A stretch of 25,172 nucleotides of DNA from a virus, in IMG/VR virus record IMGVR_UViG_3300008459_000350, positions 1 through 25,172 of that record. One strand, written 5' to 3'. The notes beneath the pieces are model-generated. The model worked only from the letters and a program-made list of their open reading frames with translations, had not been told where the DNA came from and searched no databases. The position numbers were made by a program, and so were the translations under genes. Numbering within the stretch: the stretch's first letter is position 1; every line of letters begins with the position of its first letter. Positions 1 through 25,172 of this stretch are shown here, one piece after another.

Positions 1-481
1 CGATAGCTTGTCCATTAGCCCCTGTCAAAAGGGTTCCTACACAACCCCAAGCAGCACTAAAAGGATTGGTTGTGGTGGTTACTAAACCATGTTGAACTAA
101 TGGATCATAACCTTGATCACCTGGTTGTAAAATATATGCTATGATTCCACCCAATGCAGCGTCACCAACTTCATAAGTCGGTGGTAGATTATCACAGCAT
201 AGATCAATACTTACACGCTTCCATGTACCACTACTACCTTTAGGGTAGCCATCAGCGATAACAAGACTTCCTGGTACAATCTTACCAACTTTAGTGTATC
301 TAACCCAACCCATTTTTTTAGAAGGTGTGGTTGGTCCAACCGGATCGTCGCAACATAGATCTGTTACCACTTCAGCCCATAGTGCTGGACCTTCAGGGTA
401 ACTACCTTGTGTAATGATCATACTACCTGGAACAATCTTTCCAGACTTAGTATATCTAACAAATGCACGTTGCTTTGCCAT
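1..481 (-). CDS. Phage adhesin/tail fibre, two shared N-terminal modules plus Lcl/DUF1566-like domain (partial, C-terminus beyond left edge)
   Basis: The first 160 residues are visible; the frame is still open at base 1. The ATG at 481 lies 4 nt after the stop of the preceding 49-residue gene. Residues 1-44 and about 55-96 are two copies of a module also seen in three other genes of this window (core KIVPGS, then Tyr-Pro, Trp and a closing DLCC). From about residue 110 the sequence GGIIAYILQPGDQGYD, followed by QHGL and AAWGC, resembles the start of DUF1566/Lcl-type domains that are common in Bacteroidota secreted and phage fibre proteins. The likely role is a virion surface protein that docks through the N-terminal modules and presents a C-terminal receptor-binding domain. 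The module repeat is seen directly, the domain match is from memory, and the receptor-binding role is inferred. Confidence 0.75.
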   Translation of the reverse strand, partial: MAKQRAFVRYTKSGKIVPGSMIITQGSYPEGPALWAEVVTDLCCDDPVGPTTPSKKMGWVRYTKVGKIVPGSLVIADGYPKGSSGTWKRVSIDLCCDNLPPTYEVGDAALGGIIAYILQPGDQGYDPLVQHGLVTTTTNPFSAAWGCVGTLLTGANGQAI

Positions 482-485
482 ACAA

Positions 486-635
486 TTAATTTTGATTGTT
501 AGACTGAGCTTTTGCTGCTTCTACTAAAGCTTTAGCTTCTTCAAGAGTTTTACCTTCTTTTAAGTAGTCAGATACTCTTTTATCTTGTGCATCTCTAATA
601 GCTTTTTCTTCTGGGGTTACTTTTTTAATTGGCAT
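486..635 (-). CDS. Small lysine/glutamate-rich helical protein, 49 aa
   Basis: ATG at 635, TAA at 486-488. It fits exactly between the adhesin gene ending at 647 (11 nt gap) and the adhesin starting at 481 (4 nt gap), with no overlap. The product begins MPIKKVTPEEKAIRDAQDKR and continues with more Lys, Glu and Ala. It has no Gly or Pro after about residue 30, has no hydrophobic segment, and should be mostly alpha-helical and soluble. The tight fit between two genes on the same strand is the main evidence that it is translated. The function is not recognised; a small structural or fibre-associated protein is possible from context only. Confidence 0.6.
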   Translation of the reverse strand: MPIKKVTPEEKAIRDAQDKRVSDYLKEGKTLEEAKALVEAAKAQSNNQN

Positions 636-646
636 GATTTTAAATT

Positions 647-1426
647 TTAAGGGTTAACTGTTACACTCCATCCTTTTAATATAAGACTTGCTTCAGCTGC
701 TGATCCTAGAACAGATGGTGCAGAGTTAGTACCTCCACTAACATCAACAAATCCACCAGTTAACCCACCACTGTCAAGTGTAATAAGAACATGGTCTACA
801 GAAGCTTGTGTTAAAGCATTATTGTTCAAATTAACATCATCCAAGTTTATACAACCTGTAATGTTTATATGTACTAATCCTGAACTTTGGTTATACAACT
901 GTCTAAAAGTAGTTATTCCTGTAAAATCTAAAGATGTAAATGCCATATCATCACCATCCCATTCATCGATACCTTCTAATTTTTGAAGATTGCTTATTGC
1001 TACAGCTTGACCAGGACCAAACCCAATTTCAAAATCTTGAATTTGACTAGGGTTGTCTATACATAAATAAACAGTGTGAGGGATTAAACCTTCTAAGTCA
1101 TATTCAAAATCATAATCACTTCCATCAGCAACAAGAGAAAAACTCTCACTCACTACTGATGTCCATTGAATACTTCCTGTTAAATTAGGTCCTCCATTTC
1201 TTGTTTGTAATGTAAAACCATACTGTCCACTTTCAACATCTGCAATAGCTTGTATTGCTATACAGCATGTGTATCCACCATCTTGAATAGTGTTACAACA
1301 TAAGTCTGCTGGAACTTCACTCCATGTAGAAGATCCATTAGGATATGATCCACTAGTGAGGATCAAACTCCCAGGTACAATTTTTCCTTGCTTACTGTAC
1401 CTTACAAATGCACGTTTTTTTGACAT
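647..1426 (-). CDS. Phage adhesin/tail fibre with one N-terminal module and LRR-like C-terminus, 259 aa
   Basis: Residues 1-44 are a single copy of the shared adhesin module (RAFVRY, then GKIVPGS, GSYP, W and DLCC). The middle is beta-rich and the last 110 residues have a leucine-rich-repeat-like pattern with regularly spaced Leu, Ile and Asn (for example GCINLDDVNLNNNALTQ). The C-terminus is a glycine-rich segment ending GWSVTVNP. A similar ending (GWTVTL) closes the two fibre genes at 4308 and 5721, so these proteins share both an N-terminal and a C-terminal theme. The probable role is a virion receptor-binding or host-attachment protein. It starts 12 nt after the amidase stop, in the same minus-strand operon. 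The module is seen directly; the LRR label is pattern recognition and the role is inferred. Confidence 0.75.
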   Translation of the reverse strand: MSKKRAFVRYSKQGKIVPGSLILTSGSYPNGSSTWSEVPADLCCNTIQDGGYTCCIAIQAIADVESGQYGFTLQTRNGGPNLTGSIQWTSVVSESFSLVADGSDYDFEYDLEGLIPHTVYLCIDNPSQIQDFEIGFGPGQAVAISNLQKLEGIDEWDGDDMAFTSLDFTGITTFRQLYNQSSGLVHINITGCINLDDVNLNNNALTQASVDHVLITLDSGGLTGGFVDVSGGTNSAPSVLGSAAEASLILKGWSVTVNP

Positions 1427-1437
1427 TTTAATTTATT

Positions 1438-2088
1438 TTAAAGTGATTTTAACATTGCAATCATCTTAGGATGAGGGTAGATATCTACTTTATCTGCTCT
1501 CACAGAATTATGTGTAAACACACCAGCCTCACCTCTGAGTGCTCTCTGAGTAACAGTCCAGATATCTTCGTTATACTTAATCGGAATACCATATCTGTCC
1601 CTCCATAACAATAATAAATCTTTCACACTCTGAATCTGAGCATCAGAGTAGTTATGGAAATAAATATGTCTTTTATAGGGAACATCTAGCTTAATCACTT
1701 GATCAGCAGGAACTTCCCCTCCAACATAATTATAAAACTTACCTCCAGTGTAACTAAGTTGACCCCAATTACAGATCTCTATACCAATAGAGTTCTTGTC
1801 GAGGTTAGTATAAGGTACACCAAATGCATCAAATACGTTACGTTTGACACCAAGATGGTATGCCCAGTATTTAGAACCAAATCCTTGTACAATCTTACCA
1901 TCTCCATCAGCTGATCCAGGACCAGCAATAGCTACACAGGTAGCTACACGCTCAGGATTAGAAGCCCACCACTTAAATACATTTGTACCACTACTGTTAC
2001 CAGCTGTATGGTGCAAGTAAATTTGACGTTTGGGATGTTCTTCCCTTACATACTGACTAGACGGAAAATCAATTTGTACTAGGTTCAT
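1438..2088 (-). CDS. N-acetylmuramoyl-L-alanine amidase (Amidase_2/PGRP fold) endolysin, 216 aa
   Basis: The protein cuts the amide bond between MurNAc and L-Ala in peptidoglycan and would act as the phage endolysin. Expected zinc ligands of the Amidase_2 family are visible: the His pair at residues 26-27 in IYLHHTAG, His193 in FTHNS, and Asp202 in KVDIYPHP, a spacing close to that of AmpD and T7 lysozyme relatives. GIEICNWG near residue 104 is the conserved core strand, and WAYHLG (74-79) is the usual loop. A stretch at about 112-140 looks like a family-specific insertion. No signal peptide is seen, consistent with holin-dependent release. Its start lies inside the upstream holin-like gene (20 bp overlap), as in many lysis cassettes. 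The catalytic assignment is strong. Confidence 0.93.
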   Translation of the reverse strand: MNLVQIDFPSSQYVREEHPKRQIYLHHTAGNSSGTNVFKWWASNPERVATCVAIAGPGSADGDGKIVQGFGSKYWAYHLGVKRNVFDAFGVPYTNLDKNSIGIEICNWGQLSYTGGKFYNYVGGEVPADQVIKLDVPYKRHIYFHNYSDAQIQSVKDLLLLWRDRYGIPIKYNEDIWTVTQRALRGEAGVFTHNSVRADKVDIYPHPKMIAMLKSL

Positions 2089-2272
2089 CTGTAAAAAAGT
2101 TTGAAATGAATTTACCTACAACACCTACCACCATAATAACTGTACCAGCTATAGGGTGTCCGTTAAGGATTACAATTGTAGCACCAAATGTACCAGCAGC
2201 CGCTAGGCTGTCTCCAAACACCCTAAGTCTCTTAGGAGTGGGAGAGAAATAATGTTTCCAACCGAACTGCAT
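2069..2272 (-). CDS. Small membrane protein, putative holin, 67 aa
   Basis: The protein has a charged N-terminus (KHYFSPTPKRLRVFGD), then a long hydrophobic stretch at residues 22-60 that can form two short membrane spans with a break at NGHP. A short charged tail (TDEPSTN) follows. This two-span, under-100-residue layout matches class II holins, which form the membrane lesion that lets the endolysin reach the cell wall. The strongest support is context: its 3' end overlaps the amidase start by 20 bp. The topology is read from sequence and the holin role is inferred. Other small membrane proteins at 7121-7468 and 7453-7842 could share or replace this job. Confidence 0.65.
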   Translation of the reverse strand: MQFGWKHYFSPTPKRLRVFGDSLAAAGTFGATIVILNGHPIAGTVIMVVGVVGKFISNFFTDEPSTN

Positions 2273-2282
2273 AACCTATATT

Positions 2283-2585
2283 TTAGAGAAGTGTAATGTT
2301 GAGCTTGGCAGCAATACGCACATAAGCATCTTCATTGATGTCTGCACTATTTCCCCACTCATTATATTCAGTTCCCTCTAGTGCAGAATTTCCTTTAGCA
2401 AGCATGATGTTACTAACCTGAGGCTCAGAATCAGGATCTTCACTAGGAGTGATCACTTGATTAATGAGTTCAAAATAGAAAGTTGCTGAGTTAGTCAGGT
2501 TGTCATTAACAATATACAACTCAAGATGATTTGCTGTTTGCTGTTGACCGTTTACCCAAAGTGTTACGGGTTGAATCGCTTTCAT
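2283..2585 (-). CDS. Conserved phage hypothetical protein, 100 aa
   Basis: It starts MKAIQPVTLWVNGQQQTANH and alternates short beta-type segments. Near the C-terminus EYNEWGNSADINEDAYVRIAAKLNITLL looks like a compact helix-strand end. It resembles small proteins that sit beside fibre and lysis genes in Bacteroidota phages, but no function is known to me. It has no signal peptide or membrane segment. It lies between the 17-residue-repeat fibre and the holin-like gene on the same strand (23 nt and 10 nt gaps), so a small virion or fibre-associated protein is plausible from context only. Confidence 0.7.
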   Translation of the reverse strand: MKAIQPVTLWVNGQQQTANHLELYIVNDNLTNSATFYFELINQVITPSEDPDSEPQVSNIMLAKGNSALEGTEYNEWGNSADINEDAYVRIAAKLNITLL

Positions 2586-2608
2586 AATATATATTTATTT
2601 ATAAAGGT

Positions 2609-4024
2609 TTAGAATAAATCGTTCCAGATAGTACCGTTGAAACAACGTAGTTTGTTTGTTCCACTATCATAATACACATCCCCAGCTTGTGCTGTAGCAG
2701 GTTGTGTCATAGGTTGAAATCTAACAGAACCATTAGATTTAATACGCATTCTTTCAGTGGATGCAACTAAGCTAGGGGCTGTTCTAAAAATAATAGCAGC
2801 ATTGTTAGTTGACCCAGAGTCAAAATACATTTGACCAGGGAAGTTTACGTCTGTATTTCTAAATGCTTGGAATGCTGCTCCATTAGCAACAGCAGCTATT
2901 AGGGGAGCAGCATAAAATCTGATAGCTGTAGGGTTATCACCAAGACGAATATCCGCATAACTTTGAGTGCTTGAGTCATTGTTATCAAGCGTAATCAGTC
3001 CATAAGTGTTCTGAGGAGCAGTGTTCATGTTCTTGATAGTAAGAACACTCTTTGTATAGTCAAATGCTGCAGGGCTTCCCTCAAAGTAACCTGTACCAGC
3101 TACTTGAAGTTTATATCCTGCGTTTGTAGGAAGTGCAGTAGAACCTCCTACAAATGTATTACCATCATTGAAAGATACAATTCTTCTATTATTAGAACCA
3201 TCAGCAATAATAATATGATTACTTAAAGTTGCAGATAATCCTTGAACTTGTGCACCAATTACTGTATTGCTACTACCTGTGGTAATACCTCTTCCCGCAC
3301 GTTGTCCTATAAAAGTATTATAACTTCCTGTAGTTAAAGATTCACCAGAAAAATAACCATAACCAGTATTAGCTACACCAGTAGTCATTTTCCACAAACT
3401 ATCTAATCCAAAAGCACAGTTTTGAACTCCTGTAGTTAATGCAAATAATGCCCACCCACCGAATGCTTGGTTATTATTACCAGTAGTAGAGCTAAACAAT
3501 GCTCTATATCCAAAAGCATCATTTTGTGTAGAATCAGCTCCACCTGTATACTGCCAACTATTACAAGCTTCTGCACCAAACCAAGTAGAAGTATGCCATC
3601 CACCAGCTCGAATATAATTTCTATCAATTAAAGCATCAGCTCTTGTTGGAGCTTCAATAACTAATTGTGGTAATTTTTGAAGAGGAGCAACACCCCTATA
3701 TGTAAGAGGAATAGGACCATTAATTGCTCCAACATCTACCCCACCAAAAACATCTAATCCTACACTAGGTGTATTTGTACCAATACCAAGTCTATTGTTT
3801 ACATTATCCCAAAATAACTGTGTAGGATCTTCACTAATAGTACCAGTAGAACCTGTAAATAACACAGATCCTGGTGTATATGATGTAGGTACAATAGCAT
3901 CAATCTCAGTTTGTACCTGATTGACTAAGTCATTTAAATGAGCAAGCCTTGCAAACTCAGTGTCTCCTTTGATCTTATTTACATAAGGATCAGGACTTAA
4001 CGGTTTATACTTTTTAATAGCCAT
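2609..4024 (-). CDS. Tail fibre/adhesin with 17-residue head-type repeats, 471 aa
   Basis: The N-terminus (MAIKKYKPLSPDPYVNKIKG) is followed by a helical stretch (LAHLNDLVNQVQTEID), as in fibre proteins that trimerise. Residues 75-95 (NNRLGIGTNTPSVGLDVFGG) are the familiar GIGT-x-P-x-x-x-L-D/V segment of Bacteroidota phage and surface fibres. Residues about 171-260 hold six repeats with an exact 17-residue period, each with an aromatic or Ile-Gly step and a TTG turn, like trimeric beta-roll heads. The C-terminus reads MRIKSNGSVRFQP, then GDVYYDSGTNKLRCFNGTIW, a typical closing element of such fibres. No Ser/Lys intramolecular chaperone of the S74 type is evident. The likely role is receptor recognition as a trimer. 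It is not built on the KIVPGS module of the neighbouring adhesins. Confidence 0.82.
   Translation of the reverse strand: MAIKKYKPLSPDPYVNKIKGDTEFARLAHLNDLVNQVQTEIDAIVPTSYTPGSVLFTGSTGTISEDPTQLFWDNVNNRLGIGTNTPSVGLDVFGGVDVGAINGPIPLTYRGVAPLQKLPQLVIEAPTRADALIDRNYIRAGGWHTSTWFGAEACNSWQYTGGADSTQNDAFGYRALFSSTTGNNNQAFGGWALFALTTGVQNCAFGLDSLWKMTTGVANTGYGYFSGESLTTGSYNTFIGQRAGRGITTGSSNTVIGAQVQGLSATLSNHIIIADGSNNRRIVSFNDGNTFVGGSTALPTNAGYKLQVAGTGYFEGSPAAFDYTKSVLTIKNMNTAPQNTYGLITLDNNDSSTQSYADIRLGDNPTAIRFYAAPLIAAVANGAAFQAFRNTDVNFPGQMYFDSGSTNNAAIIFRTAPSLVASTERMRIKSNGSVRFQPMTQPATAQAGDVYYDSGTNKLRCFNGTIWNDLF
3245..3514 (-). repeat. Six in-gene repeats of 51 bp (17 residues) in the fibre gene
   Basis: In the 471-residue fibre, glycines fall at residues 172, 189, 206, 223, 240 and 257, exactly 17 apart. 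A second set in TTG turns falls at 182, 199, 216, 233 and 250. The DNA copies have diverged, so the repeat is conserved at protein level. The pattern fits a repeating beta-roll or beta-helix turn. Confidence 0.85.
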
Positions 4025-4026
4025 TT

Positions 4027-4287
4027 TTAGTCAATTAAATTTCCTAATTGTAGATTTTGTTCAAGTTGTGCTTCCACTTGAGCTTGTGTTACAGGACTAT
4101 CTGTCCAATCTACAGGTATAAGCTCAGCATTTTGATACACTTCTTCTAGCTCAGGAAGCATTTCAGCGGGAAATGTCTCTTGAGAGAAATAGAATGTGCC
4201 ATCATCACGCTTACCAAATGTCACTTGGTAAAACTCTGTAGCATTAAGACCCATGTAAGTTCCTGTCGATGTTTTGTAGAAGTTCAT
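4027..4287 (-). CDS. Small acidic phage hypothetical protein, 86 aa
   Basis: The protein begins MNFYKTSTGTYMGLNATEFY and has a beta-rich first half followed by an acidic helical half (PAEMLPELEEVYQNAEL and VEAQLEQNLQLGNLID). There is no membrane segment and no motif I recognise. It ends 2 nt before the start of the 471-residue fibre and begins 20 nt after the 463-residue fibre, so it is almost certainly co-transcribed with them. A fibre-associated chaperone or small structural component is a guess from position only. Confidence 0.65.
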   Translation of the reverse strand: MNFYKTSTGTYMGLNATEFYQVTFGKRDDGTFYFSQETFPAEMLPELEEVYQNAELIPVDWTDSPVTQAQVEAQLEQNLQLGNLID

Positions 4288-4307
4288 AATTTATATTTTA
4301 TATATTT

Positions 4308-5699
4308 TTAACTAAGTGTAACTGTCCATCCCTGTGCAGCAAGATATGTTCTTGAAACAAGAGAAGCAGCAGAGACAGTGGTTGTAGTTCTTACCGCTAA
4401 TTCAGCCTGACTACCGACCACAGGAGTGATTCCTGTAAGGTTTGTAGCAATGTTGTTCCAAACTAAATCTGATACAGCTGTTGTATTCTGGGTGGTATTT
4501 CCAGCAACACAACTGAGATATCTATTAACCTTTGGCATATTCAAGAACCAGCTTTCATTACCACCCATTCCCCATAGACTGCTATTTATTGTAAACATTA
4601 GTTCTGAAACATTAGGATAGTTCGTTTGATTTACAAATGATCCTACACCTAAAAGATTTCCAGTTCCAATCATTTGACCAAACGTAAGCTGAGTGATGGA
4701 AGGTCTGTATAAATTTGGAAAAAACGCAGCATTTTCATATCTCCAAGGTCCCCCACCAGCGTGCTCCATTGGGAAACTCCATAGTGATGTTAACTCTTGC
4801 CAGTTAGTAATTAGGTTGTAATCAGTATTAAAATACGCAGCCATCAAACAAATAGCTTTTGTATTTATAGGAAGATTGCCTGCTACATAGTAGACACCCC
4901 AACTAAAGCTTGGACCTAGATATTCAGTATCTTCATTATGAAAAACATACAAGTCTGAACTAGTGGTGTATCCTGTACAGTTTACAGCCAATACATTTCT
5001 TCTAGGTATTTTAGTTTTATACCTTTGACCTGAACCAAGTAAGTATCTATTCCAGTCACGAGTGCTATCAGAATCTACAATAAATCCATTTACAGCCCCT
5101 GTTAAAGTTGTAGAACCATATTTAATTATGTCATTAGTTCCTACATACAATCTAATGTTTGCGGGACCTCTGTACATATAATACCTCAAAGCTCTAAGTC
5201 CAGGATCAGTGGGTGATGTAGATTTAAAACTTGTAGAAGTTGTAGAAATAGGAGTAATTGTTGATACAAGTTGATTATCAGGATCAGAGTTCCAAAGAGC
5301 AGCATATTCAGTTGCATTATCTGCTATTCCTAAATATACATCATTAACATTCCATACTCCTACAGGATATCCTGGGGTGTCTGTTCCTAAGAAAGTCCTA
5401 AGATTAAATACAGGTTCACAACATAAATTAATACTTACATCTCTCCACAGTGACCCGTTGCGAACTGGAGGTTTATTTCCTAATACTAACGATCCAGGAA
5501 CTATATTACCGTCTTTAGTGTATCTTACAAATCCTTTAACCTTACTAGTAGTGTAAAAACCAGGATCATCACAACACAAATCAGTTGTAATCTCAGCCCA
5601 TTTAGCAGGTCCTTCTGGATAGCTACCATTGGTAACAATCATACTACCCGGAACTATTTTTCCGTTTTTAGTATACCTTACAAATGCTCTGTTTTTCAC
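4308..5699 (-). CDS. Phage adhesin/tail fibre with two N-terminal modules, 463 aa
   Basis: Residues 1-43 and about 55-94 are two copies of the shared module (RAFVRYTKNGKIVPGS and GFVRYTKDGNIVPGS, ending LCC). After the second copy comes a domain starting TFLGTDTPGYPVGVWN, a beta-rich middle and a C-terminal part with LRR-like features (ESWFLNMPKV, then SDLVWNNIATNLTGI, ending GWTVTLS). The domain after the modules and the C-terminus match the next gene upstream (5721-7121), while the middle differs more, so the two are paralogues. The likely role is a virion surface receptor-binding protein. The start is a standard ATG in an A/T-rich leader without a Shine-Dalgarno sequence. Confidence 0.78.
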   Translation of the reverse strand: MKNRAFVRYTKNGKIVPGSMIVTNGSYPEGPAKWAEITTDLCCDDPGFYTTSKVKGFVRYTKDGNIVPGSLVLGNKPPVRNGSLWRDVSINLCCEPVFNLRTFLGTDTPGYPVGVWNVNDVYLGIADNATEYAALWNSDPDNQLVSTITPISTTSTSFKSTSPTDPGLRALRYYMYRGPANIRLYVGTNDIIKYGSTTLTGAVNGFIVDSDSTRDWNRYLLGSGQRYKTKIPRRNVLAVNCTGYTTSSDLYVFHNEDTEYLGPSFSWGVYYVAGNLPINTKAICLMAAYFNTDYNLITNWQELTSLWSFPMEHAGGGPWRYENAAFFPNLYRPSITQLTFGQMIGTGNLLGVGSFVNQTNYPNVSELMFTINSSLWGMGGNESWFLNMPKVNRYLSCVAGNTTQNTTAVSDLVWNNIATNLTGITPVVGSQAELAVRTTTTVSAASLVSRTYLAAQGWTVTLS

Positions 5700-5720
5700 T
5701 ATTTATAAAATTGTATAGTA

Positions 5721-7121
5721 TTAATTAAGTGTTACAGTCCAGCCTTGAGCTGCAAGGTAGGTTCTAGAAACTAACGAAGCAGCTGATGCAGCTGAAGTAT
5801 TTCTAATACGAAGTTGTTTTTGACTACCTACAACAGGAACAATTCCTGTTAAATTTGTAGCTACATTATTCCAAACAAGATCTGATGTAGCTGTAGTTTG
5901 TGCTCCTGAATATATAGCAAGATATTTAGTTACTTTTGGCATATTCAAAAACCAGCTTTCTGATCCTGTAAAGTTCACTGAAGAATTATTTTGATCTGTT
6001 ATAAGTTCAGAAACATTTGGATAATTAGCTTGAGTCATGTATGGAGCAGTCGAAATAAGATTGTTAAGTGATTGACCAATCTGTACCTGTGTAATTTGAG
6101 TAGAATTTATAGTAGCAGGCCATTTTGCAGGATCAGTCTGATGCCATCTACCACCCCCTGCAGAAAAATTACAAATACTCCATAAAGAAGTAAGTTGAGG
6201 CCAGTTATTTATTGCATTATAGTCAAAAGTATTTCCATCTGTTCTTGCCTCAAATGCCTGTGTAGCAATAGGAAGAGCCCCAAAAATAGTATAGACACCT
6301 CCATCTGGAGGAAATACTTTTGGTCCTACATACTCTGTATCTTCATTATGAAATATAAAAACAGGTGTGCTATCTGGATTACCTGTACATGTTAAAACAT
6401 ATACTGTTTTATTTGGAACTTTTGTAAAGTAGTTAATTGTCCAAAGAGGTCTATTCCATTCAAGTCTTGTATCCGACTGTACTGCTGTAGCATTAGCTGC
6501 TGTTCTTGTTGTAGATCCATATCTAACTATATCATTTATGCCCATAAATATTTGTAATCCAGGAGCACCTGTATATCTATAATATCTCAATCCTCTTACA
6601 AAACTAATTGTAAGATTTGGCGTATCTGTTATATAAAACTCTGTAGATGTGGGTCCAGCAAAAAGTTTTCCTTGTGCTTGGTTTGTAACATCTGAGTTCC
6701 AAAGAGTTACGTAAGCATCCTGATCTGTAGCTGTTCCTAGGTATGTACCAGTTATGTTCCAAACACCCACTGGGTAACCTGGTGTATCAATATTCAGAAA
6801 GTTTTTCATAGGAATAATAACACAAGAAAACTTCTCGCAGTAAACAATCTGTTCTATTGTATGAACTCCTAATGGTTTCTTTCTAGCTGCAAATAAAGAA
6901 TTTGCAATTATATTTCCGTATTTATCAACCTTGACAAAGAACCTTAATCCTTCTGGATGATATTCTCTACATTCACAAGGAAGGGGTGTGTATTCAAAAT
7001 TCTTAAGCTCAAATAACCCTCTTTTTAAAGATGGATAGGGTTTATGAAAACCCTCCATGGTTCCCGGTATAGGAAAACCATATTTATCTTTTTGAGCATA
7101 ATATTTTTTACAGACCGCCAC
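5721..7121 (-). CDS. Phage adhesin/tail fibre, paralogue of the 4308-5699 protein, 466 aa
   Basis: The body is clearly paralogous to the neighbour: NFLNIDTPGYPVGVWN at about residue 107, NDIVRYGSTT, VFIFHNEDTEYVGP, ESWFLNMPKV, SDLVWNNVATNLTGI and GWTVTLN at the end. The N-terminal modules are present but degenerate (KDKYGFPIPGT near 11-21 and FFVKVDKYGNIIANS near 61-75), and the paired cysteines have become CEC and YCEKFSC. The start is a GTG that overlaps the UAG stop of the preceding gene by one base (UAGUG), suggesting coupled translation. The next in-frame Met would remove half of the first module, so GTG is preferred. The role is probably receptor binding, with a different specificity from its neighbour. 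Confidence 0.78.
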   Translation of the reverse strand: MAVCKKYYAQKDKYGFPIPGTMEGFHKPYPSLKRGLFELKNFEYTPLPCECREYHPEGLRFFVKVDKYGNIIANSLFAARKKPLGVHTIEQIVYCEKFSCVIIPMKNFLNIDTPGYPVGVWNITGTYLGTATDQDAYVTLWNSDVTNQAQGKLFAGPTSTEFYITDTPNLTISFVRGLRYYRYTGAPGLQIFMGINDIVRYGSTTRTAANATAVQSDTRLEWNRPLWTINYFTKVPNKTVYVLTCTGNPDSTPVFIFHNEDTEYVGPKVFPPDGGVYTIFGALPIATQAFEARTDGNTFDYNAINNWPQLTSLWSICNFSAGGGRWHQTDPAKWPATINSTQITQVQIGQSLNNLISTAPYMTQANYPNVSELITDQNNSSVNFTGSESWFLNMPKVTKYLAIYSGAQTTATSDLVWNNVATNLTGIVPVVGSQKQLRIRNTSAASAASLVSRTYLAAQGWTVTLN

Positions 7122-7926: not shown

Positions 7927-8562
7927 TTACTTTTTAAGTTTTATTTTCCAATAAGACTGCACTCCATATATAATGTTACCGTCTCTATCAAATCCGGCAT
8001 TAGCTCCTATAATGTAGTCTTTCTTAGTTTTATATAATAAACCTGCATTAATTCCGTTTACAGGACTTCCTGCTACCCCAGATACTTGACCACCCGCATA
8101 AAGCTGTCTAACTTTTGGAGCAGGCTTAATAATTGTTTCTGTTATAATAGGATACTTAACATTGATTCTATAACCACGTTTAAGAAGCTGATTTTGACTA
8201 ACAGTATCTGTTACCTTTACATAGCCAATAGTATCAATTCTAACACTATCAGAATAAAGATTTGTAGCTAAAAATCTACCTACAACTTCTTGATACTGAG
8301 CAAGTAATCTACTATAGTTTGTATCAGGAATATAGTGATTAATAATTGTGTCACGTGAAACATCTATAGGAATAGTCTTAATTAACTGAGGTTTACTATA
8401 GATTGTAGAGTCTTTGATAATCCATGTTGTGTCACGGATCACCTTAACTTGTACATCACCAGAAGGCGTTGACTTACAGCTTTTTAATAGTAATGCAATA
8501 AGTAAACACAATACAACTAAGTTCAAAAAATTTTTCTGTATAAACTTAGATGTACTTTGCAT
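7927..8562 (-). CDS. Envelope protein with N-terminal signal/anchor, possible o-spanin-like partner, 211 aa
   Basis: From the ATG at 8562 the protein has a basic start (MQSTSKFIQKN), a hydrophobic segment at residues 12-26 and a cysteine at 29 in LLLKSCKST. This is near a lipobox but has Lys at -2, so lipidation is uncertain. A periplasmic region rich in Asp, Thr and Ile follows. The last 45 residues look like amphipathic beta-hairpins (YAGGQVSG, INAGLLYKTKKDYIIGANAGF, GVQSYWKIKL) with an outer-membrane flavour. A longer reading starts at 8610, but the ATG at 8562 fits better, overlapping the upstream gene by 17 bp. Topology and overlap recall Rz/Rz1-type spanin pairs; this is an inference. 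Confidence 0.65.
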   Translation of the reverse strand: MQSTSKFIQKNFLNLVVLCLLIALLLKSCKSTPSGDVQVKVIRDTTWIIKDSTIYSKPQLIKTIPIDVSRDTIINHYIPDTNYSRLLAQYQEVVGRFLATNLYSDSVRIDTIGYVKVTDTVSQNQLLKRGYRINVKYPIITETIIKPAPKVRQLYAGGQVSGVAGSPVNGINAGLLYKTKKDYIIGANAGFDRDGNIIYGVQSYWKIKLKK

Positions 8563-8848
8563 ACTTTTTCCTCTTTTCGTTAAGAATAAATTCTTTAGAA
8601 CTGTATACATGAGCTACTGGATTAACTGGGCTTTGTTCAGTGGGTTTTAAAAGAGATCTATTTAAGATGTCAATTTGCTTTTCTAAAGCATCAATCCTAG
8701 TTTTGTCAATATTAGACTGAGCTAAGAGCTGCTTTACATCATTTTTAAGTTCTTTGACGTCTTGCCAGATAACTGTTGCCAAAATAGTAACAACAGCTGG
8801 AAACAACCACGTCTTAATAGTTGCTACAGAGTCATTCTTTTGTTGCAT
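8546..8848 (-). CDS. Membrane-anchored coiled-coil protein, possible i-spanin, 100 aa
   Basis: One hydrophobic segment at about residues 13-29 (TWLFPAVVTILATVIW) is followed by a heptad-like stretch at about 30-66 (VKELKNDVKQLL, RIDALEKQIDILNRSLL) and a basic tail (NEKRKKYAKYI). A single N-terminal anchor with a periplasmic coiled coil is the layout of inner-membrane spanins and of some holin accessory proteins. It is the first gene of the minus-strand operon, next to the divergent promoter region, and its 3' end overlaps the following envelope-protein gene by 17 bp. The topology is clear; the spanin label rests on architecture and gene order only. Confidence 0.65.
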   Translation of the reverse strand: MQQKNDSVATIKTWLFPAVVTILATVIWQDVKELKNDVKQLLAQSNIDKTRIDALEKQIDILNRSLLKPTEQSPVNPVAHVYSSKEFILNEKRKKYAKYI

Positions 8849-22003: not shown

Positions 22004-22036
22004 CGTAAGGGACGGTTATTTATACTGTCCCTTACG
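22004..22036. terminator. Hairpin between converging operons
   Basis: CGTAAGGGAC (22004-22013) pairs perfectly with GTCCCTTACG (22027-22036). For plus-strand transcripts the stem is followed by AGCTTTTT, a good terminator tail. For minus-strand transcripts it is followed by a weaker T-rich stretch. The right arm lies inside the last codons of the minus-strand giant gene. Confidence 0.75.
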
Positions 22037-25000
22037 AGCTTTTTCAGCAGATTCCATAGCTTTTCTTGGAGACAAGCTAGATCCAGTAAGACCAAAGATT
22101 TTAGCAAGGTCGGCTACAGCTTTAGATGCATCTCTTTTTTGCCATGGATAAACACCTCCAGGTATATTCTTTTGATAGTAGGAACTATTATCCCCCACTA
22201 TATTACCATAAGTGTGTTCAATAACTTGCCATGGAAGCTTAACACCCACATCCCATAGTGCACTTGGATCAGGAAGCTGTTTAGCAGTATTTAAAAACAT
22301 TCTAGGATGGGAAAAAGTCTGAACCTCTGTAAGAGTAGTAAGTGTGATAACAGCTGCTTGATTTACAAGCCATCCTTCTAAGTTAAAGTTTTTACCAAAT
22401 ATCACATCCTTTTGTCTTCTTTCCATCTTTTTGAAACGGTCTCTATCATCGTCATCATACTCAAACATGTATGATAAGAGCATATACATCATAGCAAGAG
22501 AAGCTACCTGACCTACCACCTTACGTGCTGCAGCTGCTTCGTCAGCATCCATTAATTTATAGTAGTTTTCACCATGTTTAGCATATACAATGAAATTCTT
22601 TAACATTCTTAAAAATGCAGTGTAATTACCAGAACTCACTGTACCTAAAGCAGCACTGGTTCTTTTAGCTGCAACATGGTTCATAAACATAGAAGTAAAG
22701 TACTTCTTAAAAAATAAACCAATTTGTCCAAAGTAGTATCTATTAATTTCAGGTTGACCAAATCTACTATAGTTACCTTCTAAACGGTCACCTATTTCAT
22801 GAATCTTATTCTTAATCTCATTAAACTTTTTACCCCCTGGGGCATACGCAGGATCAATTCCAGGTTTTAATTCAATCTGCCCATTTACAAGATGGAAAGC
22901 ATTGATATAGGGAATTTCATTTGTTGCTCCATTGATAGTTTGTTTAACCTTTTCAAAGTAGAGCATACCACACATCACCTCTGTAGTAGCTTCAAGCTGT
23001 AAGAACTTTCTAGGTGACATTAAGAAACTAAGATTAGCAGCGTCATCAATAGCTGATCTACCAAATTGAGTTTCTACAGTTTTTCTAAAAAAGTCTTGAG
23101 CAGGGTCAAAGATTTGCATCAACTGTACATCCAAAGATTTATTCTTCAATCTATAAATCTCTGTAGAATTTGCAACCATCATTTTAAAAGCTCTAGCTTT
23201 ACCTAATGCATAACTAGGAAGGTCTAAGAATCTACTTCCTGAAGCTTCTATAAATCCTTGTACAACGGCTGCATTTCTATTTTTAATAGCTGATGGTATA
23301 TTTAATGCAAAAGATGCTAAGCTTACTGTTTTTGAAGCAATTGCTTTAAGCTTCCATAAAAGAGGTATATTTTGTGAAAAGTCTGTTATACGGATACCTT
23401 CAAATTCTCTCTCATACAAGTTACGAATAGCTTTAGCACGAACAGACATGTTCTTAGGTTTCAAACCAACCTTCTCACCAGTTTTTTGATAAATCCATTT
23501 TACAAACTTATCTGTTTTAGCTACAGAATTTTTAGGATCTGTCACTACACTTTGAAGAGCTTTTGCAAACGGATTAATTTCAATCAGTTTTTTTTGAGTG
23601 ATTCCAGAGTGCATATACCTCATCATAGAATCTAGAAAGTTCATACTTACCTCCTCAGGCTTCATATCATAAAGACCCTGTATAGGAATTTGTCTATGTT
23701 CTTCATCAAACATATCAGCATTTACAAGCTGACCTGGATTAAAGTTTAATCCTTTTTCATAGTCATCTTTACCCGTAAAGAAGGTTTTTCTTATATTAAG
23801 AAACCATCTTTTACCAGCATCTATTTTTTTAGAAAGCTGTGCATTTTCAATAGCCTGAGTTCCAAACCTAGGTACTTGCATATACAGACGACTCTGTCTA
23901 GGCATCTCTTCTTGAAACTTCAGATGGTATTCTTTCATTTTTTCAAGAACATCAAACTTAGCACGATCTGATCTTTTTAGATTGTCATACTCAGCATTGA
24001 TATACGGAGAATCAGACTTAGCACCTTCAGCAATTGTTTTAGGTAAGAAGTTTCCTTTATTGTCTACTGTTTTACCTACAATCTTTTCTGTCTTATACTG
24101 ATCTTTAACCTTACGATAAAAGTAAGAAAGGTTAGGACTGCCCTCAATTATTTCTCCAGAGGCAAGTTTAATTGTTTCAAAATGAGACGGGTCATTAGGT
24201 CTAACCTTATTCCAAACATACAATCTTTCATACACTACAATATTCTTCTTTGTAGCAGCATCAAATACTTCTTTTCTAATGTGATTATCTTCAAACCATT
24301 TTTTAAACTCAGGGCTTTCTTTAAATAACTCTACATACCTGCCAGGTTGAAGAATCTCATTAGCTGTAGCACCCGTAATACGGTCAGCTACACCCATTTT
24401 ACCAAAATAATTATTTACAATATCTACATAGTAGTCTGTAGCATCTTTAGACTGTAAGGCACCGAGTTGTCTATAAAGATTAGACAGCTCTATCTGAGTG
24501 GCTTTATCAACCCCAAACTCTGCTTTACGTTCAGTGAGTTCATTAAGTCTAAAACGTTGTTCAGGAGTGAGTTTTTGTCCTGATTTGATTGTATCAAACA
24601 ACAATCCCATCTCCTCAAACTCATCTTTAGTCAGTCCACTAAAACCTGCATAGTTATCTTTCTTATCCTGAATTTCCTGCTGTAGTTTTTTAATACGTTC
24701 CTTAGCCTTTTCAGATATATCAGAACCAATAATCTGACCATCATTATCTCTAAAGCCTACAGTGGCATCAATAATCTCTTCTATCTCTGCAGTGGAATCC
24801 ACCTTAAGACGTATATTATCAGGAAGACGATTTAAAATCTCTTTAATCTCTGTAAAAATTCTAGCTCTTTCTTTATAGAACTCATCTGTAAACTTAACCA
24901 CAGTGTTTTCAGAAATCCAACTTTCCCTTTTATCTCTAAACTCATCACTATCTTTAGCAATACCTGAGTCAATTAAGTTTTGTTCAAACTGATCTAAGGC

Positions 25001-25172
25001 AAATTGAAAAGCACCATTTATAGGAACAAATTCAAAAAACTTCTTAGACTCTTTTCTATACTTACGTTCAATAGCAGCAGTGAGATATTCTTGTCCTTCT
25101 TTTAAATTACCATTTGTATTGGTTAAAGAAGCAAGTTGGGAATACTCCTTCCATAGAGCTTTCTTTTGCTGA
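22016..25172 (-). CDS. Giant phage protein, C-terminal 1051 residues (partial, N-terminus beyond right edge)
   Basis: The stop is at 22016-22018 and the frame stays open to the window edge. A GTG at 24901 is not the start, because 90 further residues (QQKKALWKEYSQLAS onward) read through without a stop. The visible part is helical, Lys/Glu/Arg-rich and soluble for about 880 residues, with an internal hydrophobic segment (KTVSLASFALNIPSAI). About 150-163 residues from the C-terminus, VASLAMMYMLLSYMF forms a possible membrane helix followed by EYDDDDRDR. No nuclease, polymerase or peptidase motif was recognised. This resembles very large internal-virion or polyvalent proteins that are ejected with phage DNA, possibly with an LPD-type domain. 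The role is inferred. Confidence 0.75.
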   Translation of the reverse strand, partial: QQKKALWKEYSQLASLTNTNGNLKEGQEYLTAAIERKYRKESKKFFEFVPINGAFQFALDQFEQNLIDSGIAKDSDEFRDKRESWISENTVVKFTDEFYKERARIFTEIKEILNRLPDNIRLKVDSTAEIEEIIDATVGFRDNDGQIIGSDISEKAKERIKKLQQEIQDKKDNYAGFSGLTKDEFEEMGLLFDTIKSGQKLTPEQRFRLNELTERKAEFGVDKATQIELSNLYRQLGALQSKDATDYYVDIVNNYFGKMGVADRITGATANEILQPGRYVELFKESPEFKKWFEDNHIRKEVFDAATKKNIVVYERLYVWNKVRPNDPSHFETIKLASGEIIEGSPNLSYFYRKVKDQYKTEKIVGKTVDNKGNFLPKTIAEGAKSDSPYINAEYDNLKRSDRAKFDVLEKMKEYHLKFQEEMPRQSRLYMQVPRFGTQAIENAQLSKKIDAGKRWFLNIRKTFFTGKDDYEKGLNFNPGQLVNADMFDEEHRQIPIQGLYDMKPEEVSMNFLDSMMRYMHSGITQKKLIEINPFAKALQSVVTDPKNSVAKTDKFVKWIYQKTGEKVGLKPKNMSVRAKAIRNLYEREFEGIRITDFSQNIPLLWKLKAIASKTVSLASFALNIPSAIKNRNAAVVQGFIEASGSRFLDLPSYALGKARAFKMMVANSTEIYRLKNKSLDVQLMQIFDPAQDFFRKTVETQFGRSAIDDAANLSFLMSPRKFLQLEATTEVMCGMLYFEKVKQTINGATNEIPYINAFHLVNGQIELKPGIDPAYAPGGKKFNEIKNKIHEIGDRLEGNYSRFGQPEINRYYFGQIGLFFKKYFTSMFMNHVAAKRTSAALGTVSSGNYTAFLRMLKNFIVYAKHGENYYKLMDADEAAAARKVVGQVASLAMMYMLLSYMFEYDDDDRDRFKKMERRQKDVIFGKNFNLEGWLVNQAAVITLTTLTEVQTFSHPRMFLNTAKQLPDPSALWDVGVKLPWQVIEHTYGNIVGDNSSYYQKNIPGGVYPWQKRDASKAVADLAKIFGLTGSSLSPRKAMESAEKARKGQYK

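Follow-up and report, generated by a model that had tools for sequence, protein, structure and literature searches.

Results

The window, meaning the whole 25,172-base virus record analysed here (IMG/VR record IMGVR_UViG_3300008459_000350), carries four genes, all on the minus strand, whose products begin with copies of one short module, followed by a C-terminal head. A profile search places five canonical copies in three of these genes (E 9.4e-27 to 6.8e-22). Gene 1 (positions 2-481), truncated by the window edge, holds two of them (347-475, E 1.5e-26; 191-322, E 2.1e-22) and then an Lcl_C-type head; the complete gene, of 259 residues, is present in another contig of the same virus with 100% identity (L001:15219-15998). 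Gene 2 (647-1426; 259 residues), which has homologues of 77-84% identity in four other contigs, exhibits a single copy (1292-1423, E 2.1e-25), and its head appears by eye to be immunoglobulin (Ig)-like and leucine-rich repeat (LRR)-like, without a Pfam match. Gene 3 (4308-5699; 463 residues) again combines two copies (5568-5696, E 9.4e-27; 5415-5546, E 6.8e-22), each predicted to form a three-stranded unit, with a head related to that of gene 4. In gene 4 (5721-7121; 466 residues), a head of the gene 3 type is fused to two degenerate copies of the type seen in a headless protein of related phages. The first of these spans residues 1-46 (about 6984-7121) and begins KYYAQKDKYGFPIPGTM, and the second spans residues 58-95 (about 6837-6950) and begins RFFVKVDKYGNIIANSL. 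A match of gene 4 to a "DNA polymerase" PHROG (E 0.008) was judged to be due to chance.

For the degenerate copies, the gene 4 N-terminus was aligned with its headless homologues, split into copies 1 and 2, and compared with the canonical profile by hhalign, using 100 column-shuffled profiles per comparison as controls. Copy 2 matched the canonical profile with a probability of 97% and a score of 49.8 (shuffle maximum 18.2), copy 1 with a probability of 82% and a score of 26.3 (shuffle maximum 14.7), and the two copies matched each other with a score of 32.6 (shuffle maximum 13.8). All three comparisons beat the best shuffle, and the seven copies in four genes proposed in the initial annotation of this DNA are therefore real, five of them by profile E-value and two by exceeding every column shuffle.

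The five aligned copies served as query for a scan of 2.9 million viral contigs, which returned 46 module loci; such scans are seeded by short conserved patterns, and divergent relatives may escape them. An iterated profile search of the open reading frames (ORFs) in these loci yielded 67 distinct proteins with a clear module. It starts within residues 1-6 in all but one of them; in the exceptional protein, an ATG further upstream was taken as the start, probably wrongly. Fifty proteins carry one copy and 17 carry two, and the module may be common to as many as four consecutive genes per locus. It is about 44 residues long, and even distant copies keep its G, P, G, S, P and W positions. At L056:12139-12713, a module gene is broken relative to its intact L026 relative, by a deletion or frameshift or possibly through an assembly error.

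Among 84,980 cellular species genomes, a single scan produced a sole match (L051; 25 residues, 44%), which was dropped because it fell short of the reporting threshold in the iterated profile search. When 50,697 phage records were searched by tblastn with one module copy, all matches had E-values of 2 or worse, and no Pfam, PHROG or NCBIfam family covers module residues 1-45 above noise, in agreement with the view that the module has no named family. In BFVD, an uncharacterised protein of Virus NIOZ-UU157 was matched weakly but on two occasions (E 0.015 and 0.073, 29-31% identity). None of the module proteins has a hydrophobic run of at least 14 residues within its first 35 residues, which argues against a signal peptide. 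Among the collections searched, the module thus occurs only in phage contigs, rather than mainly in non-phage cytoplasmic proteins, and the search with a profile built from the copies bears out the expectation that it would be N-terminal, variable in copy number and attached to unrelated C-terminal domains.

In an AlphaFold2 model of the full 463-residue gene 3 product, confidence was restricted to the two modules. The 95-residue doublet was predicted with a mean predicted local distance difference test score (pLDDT) of 80.7 and a predicted template modelling score (pTM) of 0.72, as two compact units, each of three short strands, that are connected by a flexible linker (44-49); the alignment behind this model includes the copies themselves, and its confidence is not proof of the fold. 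The copies are nevertheless predicted to be discrete small beta units, as the proposal of a self-contained domain had implied. The A3 profile gave only a chance match against the PDB, and a likeness to three-finger toxins in fold searches (Z 2 to 2.8) was taken as a common small beta arrangement.

The heads behind the module are far more diverse than the module itself. Among 35 within-genome paralogue pairs, which are not independent since the genomes are related, module identity has a median of 64%, whereas the heads are without clear similarity in 32 pairs and attain a local alignment score of 60 in the remaining three only. Pfam-type heads in the 61 module proteins scanned comprise FISUMP/Fib_succ_major (5), LCIB_C_CA (5), Lcl_C (1) and LRR_5 (1), and most heads belong to no named family. 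The FISUMP/Fib_succ_major (PF09603) and Lcl_C (PF07603) heads lie above or at their family cut-offs and differ in that they ride on phage proteins behind the module. An Lcl/DUF1566-like head had been suggested for one of the window genes, and full-length gene 1 indeed contains an Lcl_C domain (E 2.1e-8), its 34.9 bits being exactly the Pfam cut-off. The LRR-like heads suggested for the other genes find no Pfam support in the window proteins; this by-eye reading is plausible because another genome has a module protein with a clear LRR_5 head (L018:2882-4081, E 5.7e-26).

The gene 2 head, encoded in the window by a single ORF, resembles heads that are split over two ORFs at L007:4653-5189 (next ORF from about 5205), L010:6001-6534 and L013:5995-6519. 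There, a first ORF covers two modules and an Ig-like part and stops at TAA; the LRR-like part is encoded just downstream by a second ORF. Stop-codon readthrough was rejected as the first reading of these loci; a split gene is simpler because TAA stops intervene between the ORFs (twice at two of these loci) and the downstream ORF begins with its own ATG. A further module protein, of 627 residues (L018:4095-5975), includes repeated pieces like the gas-vesicle protein GvpA (E 2e-8), with no single stretch significant and the likeness far below the family cut-off.

An LCIB-type beta-carbonic-anhydrase domain lies behind a single module in nine distinct proteins (L018:6001-6972, L021:6001-6972, L024:6001-6972, L027:4130-5113, L031:5428-6408, L033:5995-6975, L037:5944-6972, L038:5989-6765 and L049:5995-6981). 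The head matches the LCIB_C_CA profile at 80.7 bits, against a cut-off of 25, and PDB entry 6kfs at E 6.9e-12. The motifs VCSDD/ICSDD, SHIT and NTCG of LCIB/LCIC-type beta-carbonic anhydrases (PF18599) are kept in the phage heads, and, unlike in the known enzymes, the domain is fused behind a phage module. In alignment with solved relatives, the Cys, His and Cys motif positions, which we take to be the zinc ligands, are kept in eight proteins by script and in the ninth by eye, and the heads are classed as putative carbonic anhydrases. The isolated-phage collection contained no LCIB-type relative that could be found, and a literature search for LCIB with phage returned nothing relevant. The initial annotation had described the heads as receptor-binding; not all of them look receptor-binding, these nine in particular.

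The origin of the doublets was approached through a tree of 77 copies. The nearest neighbours of doublet first copies were first copies in 10 of 15 cases, and those of second copies were second copies in 13 of 15; only these nearest-neighbour classes were used, because trees of 44-residue copies are poorly resolved, and they are unrooted. First copies thus group with first and second with second across genomes, from which the two canonical doublets of the window would derive from one older doublet. By this comparison, the doublet is older than the gene duplication in the window virus. Copy number had been thought to change by internal duplication: it does vary, but the copy classes speak against a recent duplication within each gene of the window virus. 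Some doublets in other loci, such as L011, look independent.

The degenerate pair of gene 4, judged by its sequence, belongs to a separate form that is found alone in related phages, as a headless protein of about 90 residues consisting of two degenerate copies. In most of the relatives found by its profile, the gene for this protein opens the same operon. The headless double-module form is probably ancestral, as far as an unrooted tree can indicate. The heads of genes 3 and 4 are 50% identical over 357 aligned residues and their N-termini 25% identical; one head type is therefore carried on both the canonical and the older degenerate doublet, which at the level of sequence is direct evidence that heads or anchors have been exchanged in a single virus. 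In G006, a 118-kb genome, a similar protein of 133 residues is located in a block with ring, exonuclease and muzzle genes. The degenerate double module there (L052:11114-13745) is flanked by two proteins that resemble each other and contain threonine-rich linkers; one of these two weakly matches a peptidase PHROG (E 2.9e-6). Near another headless double-module gene, a 710-residue protein (L063:11027-13156) displays an N-terminal signal-like stretch and a Cohesin match (E 2.7e-6).

The module genes occupy a recurrent position, of which truncated contigs show only a part. A DnaA-like gene is coded on one strand, followed on the opposite strand by the optional headless protein, a membrane/coil protein of about 100 residues, a lysis block of holin or spanin-like genes and an endolysin, and one to four module genes per cassette; VWA and MoxR genes then follow on the DnaA-like strand. 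Two groups of loci deviate in detail, for example L039 and its near copies, in which the endolysin comes after the module genes. The corresponding conserved neighbours in the window, all on the minus strand and assigned by synteny, are an endolysin (1438-2088; Pfam Amidase_2, E 2.9e-12), a lysis gene that is spanin-like by resemblance (7927-8610) and the membrane/coil protein of about 100 residues at the start of the operon (8546-8848).

The ring and muzzle proteins of module-bearing genomes match those of crAss-like phages at 24-29% identity, the homologues being proteins of phi17:2, csAssE-Sib, cr50_1 and a Flavobacterium phage. The ring protein is present in all eight tested module-bearing records of at least 87 kb, and these genomes are crAss-like as judged by the two proteins. 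The window record is a fragment without the ring/muzzle region, and its assignment to the crAss-like phages follows from the shared gene order. At its far end (22016-25171) lies a large open protein of more than 1,051 residues, whose sole phage match, to Leptolyngbya phage Lbo-JY46, is weak (E 5e-5) and falls within an 8.2-kb gene.

Two further N-terminal motifs, INKQ..CC and SPDPY..KI.GDTE.A, occur on variable proteins of the same cassettes (L026:982-4070, L029:2194-4076, L034:3803-5471, L016:2137-2592 and window:2609-4024). They come from a pattern search made after examples had been seen and are to be taken as a lead, not as a controlled count. A head starting YKVYTALLTQ is found behind both anchors. 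The window example, on the minus strand (2609-4024), is a tail-fibre/tailspike-like protein of 471 residues (PHROG tail spike, E 4.1e-15) with the anchor SPDPYxxKIxGDTExARLAHLN.

Discussion

The module is best explained, by analogy with the head fibres of crAss001, as a virion docking domain, a reading to which we assign a probability of roughly 60%. It would be a small N-terminal attachment domain common to several late-expressed phage proteins, by means of which different C-terminal heads may occupy the same kind of virion site, probably as head or collar fibres. The heads would then face outward, for cell-surface binding or, in the case of the carbonic-anhydrase head, for enzyme carriage. 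The headless double-module protein of related phages suggests that the ancestor served for decoration or as an adaptor and gained heads later.

Several points weigh against this reading. The neighbourhood of lysis genes could also mean a role at lysis, the headless form itself cannot be a receptor-binding fibre, and the LCIB-type heads are not obviously receptor binders. The module model has no convincing fold match among solved structures, and a search of the structural region of crAss001 with the module profile was negative.

The first of these points underlies an unlikely alternative, whereby the module binds the host envelope or peptidoglycan and the proteins are non-virion products released at lysis, for instance coating debris, preventing re-adsorption or acting on cells nearby. 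In almost every locus that shows both, endolysin and spanin-like genes immediately precede the module genes, and some of the heads are enzymatic or adhesin-like. Such a role is harder to reconcile with the failure to see the module in cellular proteins, where cell-wall-binding domains are common, with the tail-spike-like proteins and other N-terminal anchors among its neighbours, and with the double module lodged in the ring/muzzle protein block of the 118-kb genome G006.

Somewhat less probable again is that the module serves for oligomerisation or cross-linking, forming dimers or trimers of heads, possibly via its closing pair of cysteines (CC), while virion attachment is provided by something else. 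This CC pair ends 77 of the 87 copies, and the initial annotation had thought that it could cross-link subunits, which is possible from the sequence. Another, unrelated anchor type in the cassette also has CC near its N-terminus, and tail and portal parts of crAss001 are known to contain inter-subunit disulfides (PMC10172136). However, the headless form and about 11% of canonical copies lack the cysteines, and a tandem pair is less to be expected of a simple oligomerisation tag. Very improbable, finally, is the idea that the shared N-terminus has no specific binding function and reflects a gene start that is prone to recombination and persists because its 5' end is copied, for although the heads vary behind a constant 5' end, the conservation of G, P, G, S, P and W across distant copies indicates constraint at the protein level, and the predicted fold is compact.

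Docking on the virion is thus the preferred reading. A bolder form of it, which we regard as doubtful, holds that the plug of about 44 residues is a universal socket adaptor, that one virion shows several heads, including an active LCIB-type carbonic anhydrase, and that new heads fuse behind the plug. The surface proteins of uncultured crAss-like phages are mostly unannotated, and if the module docks on the virion, it would offer a sequence handle for virion-displayed proteins in these phages and possibly a short tag for protein display on crAss-like particles. Surface diversification, by head swapping behind a constant plug and by the carriage of several heads together, would in that case be testable.

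The closest comparison is with crAss001, in which the head fibres gp21 and gp29 have different C-terminal domains and are inserted in capsid hexon pockets by N-terminal residues 1-38 and 1-58, respectively; most crassvirus groups have no gp21/gp29 homologues, and uncharacterised proteins may fill the role, according to the authors (PMC10172136). The gp29 gene is located among lysis genes, between holin and peptidase. The module fits this head-fibre role because its length, position, gene neighbourhood and head diversity match. As with gp21 and gp29, a short N-terminal region (the module, which in all but one of the 67 proteins starts at residues 1-6) precedes distinct C-terminal domains, more than one anchor type occurs per virus, and the genes lie near lysis genes. 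Homology to gp21 or gp29 was rejected, as the sequences look unrelated and have no similarity; the module model gave no significant match against the PDB, and the module may still share a fold with the crAss001 docking region. Unlike crAss001, where each docking region bears one head, one module here serves several heads, often as a tandem pair.

In modular phage receptor-binding proteins, the N-terminal anchor is typically a larger tail anchor. Such proteins, exemplified by Klebsiella phage depolymerases, combine as a general principle a conserved N-terminal attachment part with an exchangeable C-terminal specificity part (PMC8262889). The module proteins share this design of a constant N-terminal and an exchangeable C-terminal part, yet differ in that their anchor is only about 44 residues long, recurs in up to four consecutive genes and sometimes stands without a head.

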